Position numbers and translations under genes: made by a program
In this document: piece by piece, positions 49,594-57,197 of the stretch
Layout of the letters: every line of letters starts with the position of its first letter
Position numbering within the stretch: position 1 is the stretch's first letter
The notes under the pieces: generated by a model
Databases searched by the model: none
Told to the model about the DNA's origin: nothing
Seen by the model: only the letters and a program-made list of their open reading frames with translations
NCBI RefSeq assembly: GCF_000258515.1
Contig: NZ_AJLF01000001.1
Location: forward strand, 248,001 to 312,000
Length of the DNA stretch: 64,000 bases
Source: Thermococcus zilligii AN1
GTDB lineage: Archaea > Methanobacteriota_B > Thermococci > Thermococcales > Thermococcaceae
Reading direction: 5' to 3'

Positions 49594-50041
49594 GGTCTAT
49601 CTCGACACAAACGTCCTCCTGAACGTCTGGTTCAAAGAAGAGAACCCTAAAACTGGGGAAAAGCTGTGGAATGCTCCCCTCCAGATTTTAGAACTTGTCG
49701 AAAACGGAAAGATTGAAGGTGTCGTTTCGATATTCACGCTGATGGAAAGTGTCCAGGTGTTCAAAAGAAACAAGTTGGATCCCGAAAGGGTCAAAGAGAT
49801 TGAGGACGTTGGTATTGAGGTTTACATCCCCAACGAACTGACCCTGATTGATGCGTTCTCTTTTCAGTTGAAACTTGGCACTGACCCTTACGATTCTGTG
49901 GCACTGGCATCAGCACTGGCGTCGGGGTGTGATGTCCTGATAACGCGAGACGAAGACTTCAGGAAGAAAGCAGAGGAGCAGATAAGGATTTTGAGTCCCG
50001 AAGAATTCCTCGAATGGATCGCCACGAGTGATGAGTCATGA
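49586..50041 (+). CDS. VapC-type PIN-domain toxin
   Basis: 151 residues. PIN acidic residues are in place: RVYLDTNVLLNVWF (Asp7), TLMESVQVF (Glu), GTDPYDSVALASALASGCD (Asp) and LITRDEDFRKKAE (Asp). Such toxins are Mg-dependent RNases, often cutting tRNA or rRNA. It overlaps its antitoxin upstream and the next gene downstream by four bases, so it belongs to a compact cotranslated row. Confidence 0.88.
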   Translation: MIRVYLDTNVLLNVWFKEENPKTGEKLWNAPLQILELVENGKIEGVVSIFTLMESVQVFKRNKLDPERVKEIEDVGIEVYIPNELTLIDAFSFQLKLGTDPYDSVALASALASGCDVLITRDEDFRKKAEEQIRILSPEEFLEWIATSDES

Positions 50042-50413: not shown

Positions 50414-50426
50414 GAGAGTGTTTATC

Positions 50427-51035
50427 ATGCACGAACTGCTCTCAACTGAGGAAAGAATAAAGGTGCTCCAGTACGTTTTAGAGCGTAGTCTCATCGGCGT
50501 GGAAGAGGTAGCCAACGCCACCGGACTGAGCAAGGGGCTTGTCTCGAAGACCCTTTCACTCCTCGTGAAATATGGGATAACGAAAAAAGAGGGGAGGAAG
50601 TTCAAAATTCTGGAAACCCCTCAGAAAAGGGAGCTCAAAAGGTTCCTGAACTTTGTAACACTATATCCAAAGCTCAAGGCACTGAAAGAGGACTGGATTA
50701 TTTCCCTTGGAGTCTACGGAAGCTTCGCGAGGGGGGAAAACAGGCCGGAGAGCGACCTTGATGTCTGGGTTTTCACCAAAAAGCCGGGAATTTCGAGGTC
50801 AGCCAAACTAAAGAGGGCAATAGAGCTTGCCGTAGGGAGGGAAGTTAACCTGCTCCTGCTCACATCAAACCGCCTGAATGCCCTGAGGGAAAACGACCCG
50901 GTGTTTTACTACTCCTTGGTTTACGGTTCGCTGATAATATGGGGGGAGCCCCTTGACAGGATTTCAAGCCTGCGTGGAGAGGGGACTGCTCAGAAGGGTA
51001 GTGCCGTCAAAGGAGAAAGGACTGCTGAGCATTAA
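50427..51035 (+). CDS. HTH-MNT fusion: DNA-binding nucleotidyltransferase antitoxin
   Basis: About 202 residues from ATG 50427 (GTG 50418 is an alternative). Residues 1-70 form a winged helix (IGVEEVANATGLSKGLVSKT, LLVKYGITKKEGRKFKI). Residues about 90-190 form the MNT core with VYGSFARGENRPESDLDVWV (GS and DLDV) and VGREVNLLLL. This fusion lets the antitoxin control its own promoter, most likely via the three palindromes just upstream. In HEPN/MNT systems the MNT enzyme modifies the HEPN toxin. It overlaps the HEPN gene by about 62 bases. Confidence 0.85.
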   Translation: MHELLSTEERIKVLQYVLERSLIGVEEVANATGLSKGLVSKTLSLLVKYGITKKEGRKFKILETPQKRELKRFLNFVTLYPKLKALKEDWIISLGVYGSFARGENRPESDLDVWVFTKKPGISRSAKLKRAIELAVGREVNLLLLTSNRLNALRENDPVFYYSLVYGSLIIWGEPLDRISSLRGEGTAQKGSAVKGERTAEH

Positions 51036-51390
51036 ACGCGCCGAGGAGTGGCTCTCCGAGGCACGGAAGACCCTCGGATTCGGCTCTTACAGGAGCTCGC
51101 TCATTGCATCATACATGGCGATGTTCCACGCCGCCAGGGCACTCCTCTTCAAAGACGGCTGGAGGGAAAAGAGTCACTACTGCATAGCGCGCTATCTTGA
51201 TGAGTTTTATGTAAAAACCGGAAAGCTCGATGGGAGCTGGGTGGAACTCTTGGATAGGATGCGCGAGCTTAGGCACGAGGACCAGTATGATATCGTTTAC
51301 ACTCCAGAGGCTGAGGAGGCCGAGGAAGCTTTGGAAATAGCAGGGAAGTTTATTGATGTTGTCAAAAAGCTCTTGGAGGAGTTGGAATGA
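50974..51390 (+). CDS. HEPN-domain toxin
   Basis: About 138 residues if GTG 50974 is used; TTG 50953 would add seven. Helices: LLSIKRAEEWLSEARKTLGF, YRSSLIASYMAMFHAARALL, DGWREKSHYCIARYLDEFYV and then RMRELRHEDQYDIVY. The Rx4-6H catalytic motif of HEPN RNases is plausible in RELRHEDQY (R followed by H). Toxin of the pair with the HTH-MNT protein, whose gene it overlaps by about 62 bases. The next gene overlaps its stop by four bases. Confidence 0.85.
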   Translation: MERGLLRRVVPSKEKGLLSIKRAEEWLSEARKTLGFGSYRSSLIASYMAMFHAARALLFKDGWREKSHYCIARYLDEFYVKTGKLDGSWVELLDRMRELRHEDQYDIVYTPEAEEAEEALEIAGKFIDVVKKLLEELE

Positions 51391-53063: not shown

Positions 53064-53597
53064 ATGATCATAGCGGTAACCGGCACGCCGGGAGTTGGAA
53101 AGACAACCGTTTCAAGGCTTTTAGCTGAAAAGCTCGGCTATGAGTACGTAAATCTCAGGGACTACGCGGTTGAGAAGGGAATCGGTGAGATGAAGGGGGA
53201 TGAGCTCGAGGTTGAGGTGGACGAGCTGGCCTACAACTTCGAGCGGGACTTCGCCGGAAGAGATGCCGTCGTCGACGGGCACCTGAGCCACTTCCTCAGG
53301 GCCGACCTCGTGGTTGTTCTGCGCGCCCATCCCAGGCTGATAGGCGAGAGGCTAAAGGAGAGGGGCTATTCGAGGGAGAAGGTCGGGGAAAACGTCGAGG
53401 CTGAGCTCGTTGATGTCATCCTCGTGGAGGCCCTTGAGGAAAACGAGAACGTAATCGAGGTTGATACAACTGGGAAAACCCCGGAGGAAGTCGCTGAGGA
53501 GATCCTCGGGCTCATCGGGGGGGGCGTTAAGAGAAGGGTCGGCGTCGTTGACTGGAGCGAGGTTTACGACGAGGTTATTCCCTATCTACGTCTTTGA
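53064..53597 (+). CDS. Fap7/AK6-type adenylate kinase, ribosome maturation factor
   Basis: 177 residues. P-loop [54 protein letters not shown]. It matches the Fap7/AK6 family, whose members have adenylate kinase/ATPase activity and act with uS11 in late small-subunit maturation. GGAGGTGATGG precedes ATG 53064. Its 3' end overlaps the convergent Nob1 gene by 16 bases. Confidence 0.9.
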
Positions 53598-54076
53598 TGA
53601 CCTTTTTTCGGGATCAGCCTCACGGGGCTTCCGCAGTCGGGGCAGAACCCCTCGGGAGGCATCTCCCCAAATTTTTTCCCGCAACCTATGCAGACGTAGT
53701 TCCAGCGGATTGTCCTTTTTATGCCCCGCTTTAGCGTTCTGAACTCTATGCCGAGGGTTCTGGCTACGTTCTGGAGGTTGTAGTCGTCGGTGAAGAGGAC
53801 GCCGTTAAGCTCGTAAGCTAAGGCGAGAACCTCTATATCAGCCTCGCTCAGCTCGCTCAGCTCGCCCGTCCTCCTCGCGGCGTCTTTGATGGCCTCCATG
53901 CTCCCCTTCGAGGGGGCCAGAACCCTGACCTTGCCCGCGCTGATCAGGCCTTCTAAGAACAGCCTCGACTCGGGGTCCTTCACCTCTTCAGCGACCTTTG
54001 GCGTGGTTACGCCTTCCACGTCAACGCCCTGGATGAATATCGCCGCGTCGATCACCCTAACTTTTTCCTCTTTCAT
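53582..54076 (-). CDS. nob1: Nob1-like PIN endonuclease with zinc ribbon
   Basis: 164 residues from ATG 54076. PIN domain: [13 protein letters not shown] (Asp), PKVAEEVKD (Glu), [17 protein letters not shown] and [12 protein letters not shown] (acidic). Zinc ribbon [20 protein letters not shown] at the C terminus. Nob1 cuts the 3' end of 16S/18S pre-rRNA. It lies tail-to-tail with the Fap7-like gene, so two factors of the same maturation step are neighbours. Confidence 0.9.
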
Positions 54077-54134: not shown

Positions 54135-54902
54135 ATGAAGGTTGACCTCAACTCTGATCTGGGGGAGAGCTTTGGGAGGTACAGGCTCGGCCTCGATGAG
54201 GAGGTTATGAAGTACATAAGCTCGGCCAACGTCGCCACCGGCTGGCACGCGGGGGATCCCCTCGTCATGAGGAACACCGTAAGGCTCGCGAAGGAGAAGG
54301 GCGTGGCCGTCGGAGCACACCCCGGCTATCCAGATTTGCTCGGCTTCGGGAGGAGATACATGGAGCTTTCTCCGGAGGAAGCGAGGAACTACACCCTCTA
54401 CCAGATCGGGGCACTTTACGCCTTTGCCAGAGCGGAAGGCCTCGAGTTACAGCACGTCAAGCCGCATGGTGCCCTTTACAACGCCTTAGCAAAGGAGGAA
54501 GAGCTCGCGAGGGCGGTCATTGAGGGGATAGCCGACTTCGACAGAAGGCTCATCTTCGTGACGCTTTCCGGCTCAAAGCCTGCTGAGATAGCGGAGGAGA
54601 TGGGGGTAAAAGCGGCCCACGAGGTCTTTGCCGACAGGGCCTACAACCCGGACGGAACGCTGGTTTCACGCTCGAAACCGGAGGCGGTGATACATGACAA
54701 AGACGAGATAGCCGAGCGCGTGGTTTCCATGGTCAGGGACGGCGGAGTTAAGGCGATAAACGGCGAGTGGGTGGAGCTCAAAGTCGACACAATCTGCCTC
54801 CACGGGGACAATCCTAAGGCCGTGGAGATAGCGGCCCACGTGAGGAGGGCACTCGAAGAGGAGGGAGTGAGGATAGTGCCGATGAGGGAGGTAGTCCGTT
54901 AG
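54135..54902 (+). CDS. pxpA: 5-Oxoprolinase subunit A (LamB/YcsF family)
   Basis: 255 residues from ATG 54135; the long upstream in-frame extension is antisense to nob1. [65 protein letters not shown] and [20 protein letters not shown] are the PxpA landmarks. With PxpB and PxpC it hydrolyses 5-oxoproline (pyroglutamate) to glutamate with ATP. Normally next to pxpB; here a VapBC pair lies between. Confidence 0.93.
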
Positions 54903-54940
54903 GTTTTAAGGCCAGATTACTAAGTAAGTGCGGTGGGAGT

Positions 54941-55138
54941 ATGGGGGTTGTGGAGGCGATTTACGAGAACGGGGTTTTCAAGCCGCTGAAGAAGCTCAAC
55001 CTTCCTGAGAAGAGGAAGGTGAAGCTGATAATCCTGGACGAGTTCATCAGAGACCTAGACGATGCCTTTGGGATACTGGAGGCGGACATAGATTTAGAGA
55101 AGCTCAGGAAGGAGTGGGACAGGGATGTATCTCCTTGA
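54941..55138 (+). CDS. DUF104 (AF2212-like) antitoxin
   Basis: 65 residues. VVEAIYENGVFKPLKKLNLP followed by EKRKVKLIIL is the typical DUF104/AF2212 beta-strand start, and the C terminus is an acidic helix. Such proteins are VapB-type antitoxins. ATG 54941 has GGTGGGAG upstream and follows pxpA by 38 bases. It overlaps the PIN gene start by 14 bases. Confidence 0.88.
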   Translation: MGVVEAIYENGVFKPLKKLNLPEKRKVKLIILDEFIRDLDDAFGILEADIDLEKLRKEWDRDVSP

Positions 55139-55502
55139 TACCGACGTTCTGATTGACGTTCTCAGGGGTGTTGAGGGGGCCAGAGAATTTTTGATAGAAA
55201 TCGTGGAGAGAGGGGCATTTATCTCCACCGTTACGATAGCGGAGCTGTTCTCAGGCAGGGAGACGAGAGATCCAATTAAGAAGGAGAAGATAACGAGGCT
55301 TCTTGGCCACTTTGAGGCCCTGCCGGTAACTCCTGAGGTGGCAATGCTCGCGGGAGAGATCAGAAGGGACTACCAAGTGTCACTGGGAGATGCGATCATA
55401 GCCGCCACTGCGGCTGTTCATGGGCTTACAGTTGTCACTGGAAACACCAGGCACTTCGCAGGGGTTGAAGGCGTTTCCGTACTAAAGCCCCCGTACCGGT
55501 GA
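55125..55502 (+). CDS. VapC-type PIN-domain toxin
   Basis: 125 residues. MYLLDTDVLIDVLRG (Asp6), TIAELFSGRE (Glu), YQVSLGDAIIAATAAVHGLT (Asp) and VVTGNTRHFAGVEGVSVLKP form the PIN fold. The last motif has Asn in place of the usual acidic residue (TGNTRHF), a common variant. Its stop codon overlaps the possible GTG start of pxpB, so it is inserted without gap in the pxp operon. Confidence 0.9.
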   Translation: MYLLDTDVLIDVLRGVEGAREFLIEIVERGAFISTVTIAELFSGRETRDPIKKEKITRLLGHFEALPVTPEVAMLAGEIRRDYQVSLGDAIIAATAAVHGLTVVTGNTRHFAGVEGVSVLKPPYR

Positions 55503-55507
55503 ACCCC

Positions 55508-56203
55508 ATGAGGCCCGAAATAAAGCCTGCGGGCGACTCTGCCCTCCTCATATCCTTCGGTGAGGCCATAGACGGGGAGGTAAACGCCAGGGTTCACTCG
55601 ATAGCGAGGGCGATAGAAAAGGCGGGCTTTGAATGGCTGGTTGAGGTGGTCCCGGCTTACTCCTCGCTCCTTGTGATCTACGACCCCCTCAAAGTCACCT
55701 GCGCCGGAGTTGAGGCCTCGATAGGGCCCCTGCTGGATACAAAGGGCGAGACCTCCGGGGGCAGGCTCGTTGAAATACCCGTGGTCTACGGCTCTTCCTA
55801 CGGGCCGGACATCGGGTTTGTTGCCGGGCACAGCGGCCTCACCGTTGACGACGTCATTGAAATCCATTCGAGGCCGGTCTATCTCGTTTACTTCCTCGGC
55901 TTCCTTCCCGGCTTCGCTTACCTCGGCGGAATGGATAAGAGAATAGCAACGCCCCGTCTGGAAAAACCCCGCCTGAAAGTTCCCGCCGGTTCGGTTGGCA
56001 TAGCGGGAAAGCAGACTGGCGTTTACCCTCTCGAAAGTCCGGGCGGCTGGCGGTTAATAGGGAGGACGCCGTTGAGGCTTTTTAACCCCACAAAAGAGCC
56101 CCCAACCCTTCTCCGGCCGGGTGACAGGGTGAAGTTCGTGCCGATAGACGAGGGCGAGTTCAGGGAGTTATACGCGGAAGAATGGGGTGAAGGCGTTGAT
56201 TGA
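55508..56203 (+). CDS. pxpB: 5-Oxoprolinase subunit B (KipI-like)
   Basis: 231 residues from ATG 55508 with GGTGA upstream; GTG 55499, overlapping the vapC stop, is possible too. IKPAGDSALLISFGEAIDGE, VHSIARAI, VVPAYSSLLVIYDP, YFLGFLPGFAYLGGMDKRIA and PAGSVGIAGKQTGVYPLESP are the PxpB/KipI landmarks. It overlaps pxpC by 17 bases. Confidence 0.93.
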   Translation: MRPEIKPAGDSALLISFGEAIDGEVNARVHSIARAIEKAGFEWLVEVVPAYSSLLVIYDPLKVTCAGVEASIGPLLDTKGETSGGRLVEIPVVYGSSYGPDIGFVAGHSGLTVDDVIEIHSRPVYLVYFLGFLPGFAYLGGMDKRIATPRLEKPRLKVPAGSVGIAGKQTGVYPLESPGGWRLIGRTPLRLFNPTKEPPTLLRPGDRVKFVPIDEGEFRELYAEEWGEGVD

Positions 56204-57197
56204 GCTCCTCAGGGTTCCCTCCCTTCTGACGGTCCAGGATTCCGGCAGGGAAGGCTACAGAAAGCTCGGAGTTCCAGTCTCTGGTTACATGGATGACTAT
56301 TCGGCGAGGATAGCCAACTACCTCGTCGGAAACCCCGGAAACAGCCCGCTCCTTGAGTTCCTCCTCGCAGGGCCGACGCTGAGGTTCAACGCCTCCTCCG
56401 TCTTTGCCACCGCCGGTGATGTCGACGTCAGGCTCAACGAGGTTCCAATAGAGCCCTGGGAGAGCCACTGGGCGAAGAGGGGCGACGTTCTTGAGGTGGG
56501 AACTTTAAGGAGCGGCCTCTACGGCTACATAGCCTTCGCGGGCGGAATAAAGCGCGAGAGGCTTTTGGGGAGTTGCTCTGCTTACCCGAGGGCGAACCTC
56601 GGAAGGCCGCTGAAGGCTGGGGATACGCTCAGCCCGGGTTATGCAGTCCTAACAGGTAGGGAGGGGCGCCATCTTCCCGGGGAGCTCAGACCGGATTATT
56701 CGGACAATAGGAGAGAAATAAAGGTCGTCCTCGGGCCGAACCTCGAGCACTTTACCGGGGAAGGCGTTGAGACGTTTCTGAGCGAGACGTACACCGTAAC
56801 CCCCGAGTCCGACAGGATGGGCTACCGCCTGGACGGGCCGGCAATAGGGCACTCTTCTCTGGGAGCCGATATCGTGACCGAGCCCCTCGTACCCGGGGCC
56901 GTCCAGGTTCCAGCGGATGGAAGGCCGATAGTTATGATGCGCGACGCTCAGACAACCGGTGGATACGCAAAGGTGGCGACGGTGATAAGCGCTGATCTGC
57001 ACCTCTTAGCCCAGAGCAGGCCGGGGACGGGAGTGCGCTTTAGAGCGGTAACCGTTGAGGAAGCCTTAGAAATCCTGAGGGGGCGCGAGAAGACGCTGGG
57101 AGCTATAGAGGCCTTTTTGGAGGGGGAGATGAGGGCTTACAAAGTGAAGGCGGGAGAAAAAGAGTTCACGGCCTTCGCGGGAAAGGTTAAATATTGA
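56187..57197 (+). CDS. pxpC: 5-Oxoprolinase subunit C (KipA-like)
   Basis: 336 residues from GTG 56187. LLTVQDSGREGYRKLGVPVS, GYMDDYSARIANYLVGNPGN, YIAFAGGIKRERLLGSCSAY and MMRDAQTTGGYAKVATVISA identify the PxpC/biotin-dependent-carboxylase-like subunit. It forms the catalytic complex with PxpB and PxpA. Confidence 0.93.
   Translation: MKALIELLRVPSLLTVQDSGREGYRKLGVPVSGYMDDYSARIANYLVGNPGNSPLLEFLLAGPTLRFNASSVFATAGDVDVRLNEVPIEPWESHWAKRGDVLEVGTLRSGLYGYIAFAGGIKRERLLGSCSAYPRANLGRPLKAGDTLSPGYAVLTGREGRHLPGELRPDYSDNRREIKVVLGPNLEHFTGEGVETFLSETYTVTPESDRMGYRLDGPAIGHSSLGADIVTEPLVPGAVQVPADGRPIVMMRDAQTTGGYAKVATVISADLHLLAQSRPGTGVRFRAVTVEEALEILRGREKTLGAIEAFLEGEMRAYKVKAGEKEFTAFAGKVKY

Follow-up and report, generated by a model that had tools for sequence, protein, structure and literature searches.

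Organization of the pxpA–pxpB junction

The subject of this analysis is a 64,000-nt stretch of the Thermococcus zilligii AN1 genome, hereafter the window, in which a predicted toxin–antitoxin pair of the VapBC type lies within pxpABC, the operon for the three subunits of 5-oxoprolinase. All coordinates are those of the window, and the module and operon genes are codirectional on the + strand. The first gene, pxpA (54135–54902), encodes subunit A of the LamB/YcsF family, as judged from matches to PF03746 (354 bits) and NF003814 (418 bits, over the cut-off). It is followed after 38 bases by vapB (54941–55138), which encodes a 65-residue AF2212-like (DUF104) antitoxin (PF01954, 59.3 bits versus a cut-off of 21.6) whose residues 3–34 resemble the solved structure 2nwt (AF_2212, E 3e-6). 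The antitoxin gene overlaps by 14 bases with vapC (55125–55502), the product of which is a PIN-domain toxin of 125 residues and a predicted ribonuclease (PF01850, 71.3 bits versus a cut-off of 23.6). The operon continues with pxpB (55508–56203; PF02682, and TIGR00370 with 234 bits, over the cut-off) and pxpC (56187–57197; PF02626, and TIGR00724 with 337 bits, over the cut-off). The PxpA subfamily, PxpB equivalog and PxpC domain models are thus passed; against the PxpC equivalog model NF045499, PxpC scores 203.7, below the cut-off of 500. The original prediction of a DUF104 antitoxin and a PIN toxin between pxpA and pxpB, with 38 bases separating the pair from its neighbor on one side, is borne out by these family assignments, the gene order and the gene ends. 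The arrangement is beyond chance, as it recurs in 19 of the 83 Thermococcaceae loci compared below, in four genus groups (g1, g3, g4 and g5).

PIN toxins usually carry four conserved acidic active-site residues. In VapC, the candidates are D5, E40 and D89. Two of these, D5 and D89, are present in all 20 rows of close relatives, and E40 is present in 19, the relevant stretch being deleted in genome G005. Position 110, which we take to be the usual fourth acidic position, is occupied by His in 20 of 20 rows, and distant paralogous toxins (L144, L145, L146, L150 and L152) have Asp there. Assignment of VapC as a tRNA(fMet)-specific toxin was considered and rejected on the family models, with scores of 43.6 versus a cut-off of 140 for NF047863 and 25.4 versus 143 for NF010285.

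The start of pxpB is best placed by comparison with the other loci that carry the pair. In 18 of the 19 vapBC loci, a start codon (16 ATG, 2 GTG) is found 4–7 bases past the vapC TGA, and the end of vapC itself, GGTGA, stands at this distance ahead of it as a putative ribosome-binding site (55498–55502 in the window). In the remaining locus, in G081, the vapC frame is shifted, and candidate pxpB starts lie 0 and 9 bases past the new stop. Only 3 of the 19 loci offer an in-frame GTG that overlaps the vapC stop, so GTG 55499 was rejected as the likely start. Given the spacing in 18 loci as opposed to the overlapping GTG in three, ATG 55508, located 5 bases past the vapC stop, is more likely to be the pxpB start, and the gene has been reassigned accordingly. 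The overlap of pxpB with the toxin stop that was originally described therefore holds only if translation begins at GTG 55499 and disappears with the better start. Translational coupling of pxpB to vapC needs no overlap of the coding regions and is plausible, because the GGTGA spacing recurs in 18 of 19 loci and no promoter-like box is found directly before pxpB in the window (motif score –0.1). A dependence of pxpB on read-through from vapC, as originally described, goes further than these observations.

Upstream of vapB, by comparison, a promoter-like box can be recognized (54897–54910, with a TATA-like core, TTTTAA, at 54904–54909). The box starts in the last sense codon of pxpA, covers its TAG stop and ends 30 bases before the vapB start, and a putative ribosome-binding site, ggtgggag, is located at 54932–54939. 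The promoter motif was learnt from 125 divergent first genes and compared with 136 tight inner genes; the motif derives from our own crude gene calls, and many of the training rows are orthologous. With a score of 6.7, the window box outscores 93% of the tight inner genes but no more than 36% of the divergent first genes. A genome close to that of the window, G020, shares this box. A TATA-like box past the pxpA stop is seen in many vapBC loci, and the 21 vapB upstream regions, which are not independent rows, outscore the tight inner genes (median 3.9 versus –1.5, p 9e-6). Six pxpB upstream regions were also scored and range from –4.5 to 4.1, two of them being at about 4, the level of the median vapB box. 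From these motif scores, the module probably brings a weak promoter of its own, together with a ribosome-binding site for vapB.

Distribution and decay of the module

The sample comprised 94 Thermococcaceae genomes, and the surroundings of all 85 pxpB finds were compared for gene order. The pxpB gene is present in 85 of the 94 genomes and in 72 of the 74 with a completeness of 90% or more and a contamination of 5% or less. Both pxpA and pxpB lie on one contig at 83 loci, several of them from draft assemblies; L092 and L093, where pxpA is not on the contig, and L095, a second partial copy in G061, were excluded. This comparison of relatives, which the original prediction had proposed as a check, places the complete pair at the pxpA–pxpB site in 19 loci, including that of G081 despite the frameshift-altered end of vapC. 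In addition, one locus has a broken pair (G005), two have vapB only (G059 and G083), one has a scrap of vapC (G080), and nine have a truncated antitoxin consisting of the C-terminal part only. The remaining 51 loci have none of these, two of them (L048 in G046 and L089 in G076) holding unrelated inserts. All 19 vapBC loci have a full vapB, and a full-length toxin without vapB was not seen among the 83 loci. The antitoxin tail without an intact toxin is found at 12 loci, nine of which are the truncated forms. The stop codon of pxpA is TAG in 13 and TAA in 6 of the vapBC loci, TGA in 49 of the 51 loci without the pair and TGA in all nine loci with a truncated antitoxin.

Relatives of VapC with at least 59% identity occur in 20 of the 94 genomes, all of them at the pxpA–pxpB site beside pxpB (in G005 over residues 59–125 only). 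Beyond these, matches that cover most of the toxin have at most 39% identity anywhere in the 94 genomes, with shorter stretches reaching up to 49% over 35 residues. When 115 genomes of the phylum were searched at E 1e-12, no additional close relative came up. In phages, no VapC match was found; in viral contigs, none of 14 pattern hits was confirmed; and in plasmids, no relative of at least 60% identity was found, with identities of 37–41% among the ten matches listed of 195. Named genomes were scanned with short exact patterns, which reach close relatives only, and yielded one close relative, in Thermococcus sp. S013_22 (group g1). The same scan gave 55 distant VapC loci of at most 39% identity, none with a pxp gene in the flanks fetched up to 3 kb.

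The suggestion that the pair may protect the operon from loss does not fit this distribution and was rejected: the operon is near universal (pxpB in 72 of 74 good genomes), the pair is less common (19 of 83 loci), and loss of the pair fits the pattern better than gain. When the pair is mapped on an operon tree built by a quick search from the PxpA, PxpB and PxpC sequences of 83 rows, its presence and absence requires at least 21 changes. The loss-only model has an lnL of –53.9 and the model with gain and loss –52.3, compared with –69.5 for gain only. Because gain only fits far worse than loss only, the pair looks old. Across the 19 vapBC loci, distances in VapB plus VapC are correlated with distances in the operon proteins (Spearman 0.69, Mantel p 1e-4).

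Exchange of the module is visible in one pair of species, G014 and G072, in which silent-site differences (pS) are 0.02 for vapB and vapC and 0.40 for pxpA. The two sequences differ at only seven bases in a tract that, counted from the pxpA stop, spans –7 to roughly +605, approximately 600 bases that correspond to the module. In the 200 bases before this tract there are 28 differences, and differences are dense again after it, such that the near-identical tract fits the module ends. G064 is grouped with g1 by genome but its operon falls among g5, which may be contamination. Overall, the pair looks like a long-standing resident bound to this site, with frequent loss and occasional exchange.

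Other genes have entered the same operon. In the pxpA–pxpB gap of L048 and of L095, the gap that holds vapBC elsewhere, an antisense open reading frame (ORF) of 552 and 496 residues, respectively, is found; both appear by eye to have N-terminal hydrophobic segments, and neither Pfam nor PADLOC gave a match. The gap of L089 contains approximately 0.95 kb with ORFs that by eye resemble transposase pieces. Between pxpB and pxpC of L052 (G063) and L054 (G025) lie a CARF-like protein and a minimal CRISPR polymerase (mCpol, PF18182, E 2e-24 and 5e-23), so the second junction of the operon also takes defense-type genes. Upstream of the operon in the window, a further PIN gene (49595–49975) and a pair that by eye resembles nucleotidyltransferase and HEPN genes (50418–51390) are located 3–5 kb away, and toxin–antitoxin-like pairs are thus clustered in this region. 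The divergent neighbor of pxpA (53582–54076, – strand) encodes a PIN_6/zinc-ribbon protein of the PRK12496 family, presumably Nob1-like, which in some relatives is separated from pxpA by genes that look by eye like transporters.

The retained antitoxin tail

The segment kept in the nine truncated forms corresponds to the C-terminal part of VapB, approximately residues 34–62 (55040–55126 in the window). A hidden Markov model of the 19 VapB sequences recovers all nine, with E-values of 8e-12 to 2e-8, when run against 10,841 reading-frame segments from the loci outside the vapBC class. A profile of the tail matches 31 of the 94 genomes at E <1e-6, each at the pxpA–pxpB site, and elsewhere in the 94 genomes gives four weak matches only (E 0.03–0.09). 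In seven genomes, the tail is a separate ORF of 43–49 codons that begins by an ATGA overlap with the pxpA stop and ends either 4 bases before the pxpB ATG (four genomes) or overlapping it by 4 (three genomes). In G018 and G028, the tail frame runs into PxpB. An internal ATG is usable in G018; in G028 the stretch from the arm to PxpB contains no ATG, GTG or TTG, and if only these start codons count, the two must be translated together.

The truncated antitoxin looks preserved by selection. In the pairs G019–G063 and G056–G061, 12 of 52 silent sites but only 10 of 218 amino-acid sites are changed (Fisher p 1.1e-4, from rounded counts), and other close pairs, which share the tested rows, give ratios of 0.13–0.27. 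For most pairs that join different truncated forms, divergence at silent sites is too high to compute a ratio; the motif DL..AFG.F ... LR.EWDR is mostly kept in comparisons in which silent sites are near saturation. The nine genomes with a truncated form have no close VapC relative, and five of them (G019, G023, G028, G061 and G062) have a distant one of 36–38% identity. As a separate observation, distant VapC copies (35–38% identity) at L144–L146, L150, L152 and L153 lie behind a different antitoxin-like gene, the end of which (e.g. LREEWER) resembles the kept tail, LRKEWDR. Cross-binding between the kept tail and such distant VapC copies is conceivable on this resemblance.

We put at roughly 60% the probability of a reading in which a type II VapBC module, formed by an AF2212-like antitoxin and a PIN toxin, has long been fixed at the pxpA–pxpB junction of the Thermococcaceae 5-oxoprolinase operon. 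The module would act as a nested, partly self-standing unit, and the end of vapC would supply the ribosome-binding site of pxpB, such that the operon would still work with the module in place. For the most part it would have been passed on together with the operon, with an occasional swap between species and repeated losses, making the locus polymorphic. In several lineages the toxin and the N-terminal domain of the antitoxin would have gone and the C-terminal part would have been kept. Because the corresponding part of VapB antitoxins covers the toxin, the kept tail would most likely do the same and so protect its keeper against the toxin allele circulating in relatives.

Several observations weigh against parts of this reading. 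The median vapB box of 3.9 is well below that of the divergent genes (10.6) and comes from 21 rows that are not independent; boxes are poor in some loci (–2.3 in G024, –1.1 in G007), and neither G024 nor the two g3 loci have a convincing one. Under the two-way model, the probability that the pair was present at the root is 0.53. An AU test on the VapBC data rejects the operon tree (p 7e-5, or 0.006 with three rows removed), so the inheritance of the pair is not purely vertical. The wider flanks of G014 and G072 are mosaic, most 100-base windows having 66–92% identity and others 97–100%, and the exchange may be ordinary patchy recombination of which the module is the longest patch. The silent-change test is small, comprising two hand-picked closest pairs of 43–47 codons. 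Finally, toxin binding by the tail is carried over to the AF2212-like family from VapB in general, and selection could act on the open frame for coupling rather than on toxin binding.

This last point leads to the main rival of the protective tail, namely that the truncated antitoxin is a deletion scar whose open frame is kept to couple the translation of pxpA and pxpB, whatever the peptide. The seven short ORFs, with their ATGA starts and their ends at or near the pxpB ATG, are placed as such coupling would have them; in loci without the pair, pxpA and pxpB are mostly a few bases apart, and at two loci the tail frame continues directly into PxpB. However, the close pairs have too few amino-acid changes for their number of silent ones, and most of the motif is kept at distances where silent sites are nearly saturated. 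We regard the scar as possible but, on balance, not the probable explanation. It is unlikely that the module is instead a regulator of the operon, in which autorepression by VapB and VapC at the promoter before vapB would set pxpBC levels and tie 5-oxoproline use to stress, a tie that the original prediction had also suggested. The presence of a promoter-like box before vapB and of none before pxpB in the window would suit such a role, as would a likely pxpB ribosome-binding site within vapC, but at most loci the operon contains no such module, the vapB box is weak, and two of the six pxpB upstream regions score as well as the median vapB box. Least likely is a selfish, recently inserted mobile module whose place is an insertion accident without a tie to the operon: its patchy distribution, which takes 21 or more changes on the operon tree to explain, and the recent G014/G072 exchange would fit, but all 20 close relatives are at one site and none elsewhere in the 94 genomes, the deep branching largely agrees with that of the operon, and gain only falls 17 log units short of the model with gain and loss.

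If the reading of a long-resident module with a protective tail is extended, the pxpA–pxpB junction may hold competing alleles: an exchanged vapBC on the one hand and, on the other, an immunity allele encoding only a toxin-covering tail, made either as a short protein of its own or as an arm at the N-terminus of PxpB. This would amount to addiction and counter-addiction within one operon, and with the immunity allele a lineage could drop the pair or keep it out and still escape poisoning. We consider this extension rather doubtful at present and put it forward tentatively.

Comparison with known systems

The usual view of chromosomal toxin–antitoxin pairs is one of drifting modules, and there is dispute over what value leftover antitoxins have. 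At the pxpA–pxpB site, several stages stand side by side in relatives: the whole pair, the pair with the toxin lost, the antitoxin tail, the tail within an enzyme, and no pair. Whether orphan antitoxin fragments protect against the old toxin thus becomes directly testable in one family. In the library searched, no paper joins 5-oxoprolinase, toxin–antitoxin and Thermococcus, and the papers on Thermococcus and pyroglutamate, judged by title, include none on this subject.

The operon itself is similar to known pxpABC operons in having the three subunits in order and matching the family models; it differs in the toxin–antitoxin pair between pxpA and pxpB and in a PxpC below the equivalog cut-off. 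Relative to COG2880/DUF104–PIN pairs, the VapC family of the window is distinguished by His in place of the usual fourth acidic residue. In Makarova et al. 2009 (PMC2701414), a COG2880/DUF104 (AF2212-like) antitoxin with a PIN toxin is a predicted type II VapBC system, and the window pair combines members of these two families. Compared with those systems, the window pair differs in being fixed in a metabolic operon, with close relatives never found elsewhere in the 94 genomes. The truncated forms can in turn be compared with orphan or anti-addiction antitoxins, described in a review (PMC7354431) as antitoxin relatives without a toxin gene that possibly protect against an incoming toxin. Like these, the truncated forms lack a toxin gene and are possibly protective. 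Unlike those orphans, they keep only the C-terminal part of the antitoxin, at a site where relatives hold the whole pair, and in two genomes the tail is in frame with a subunit of a metabolic enzyme.

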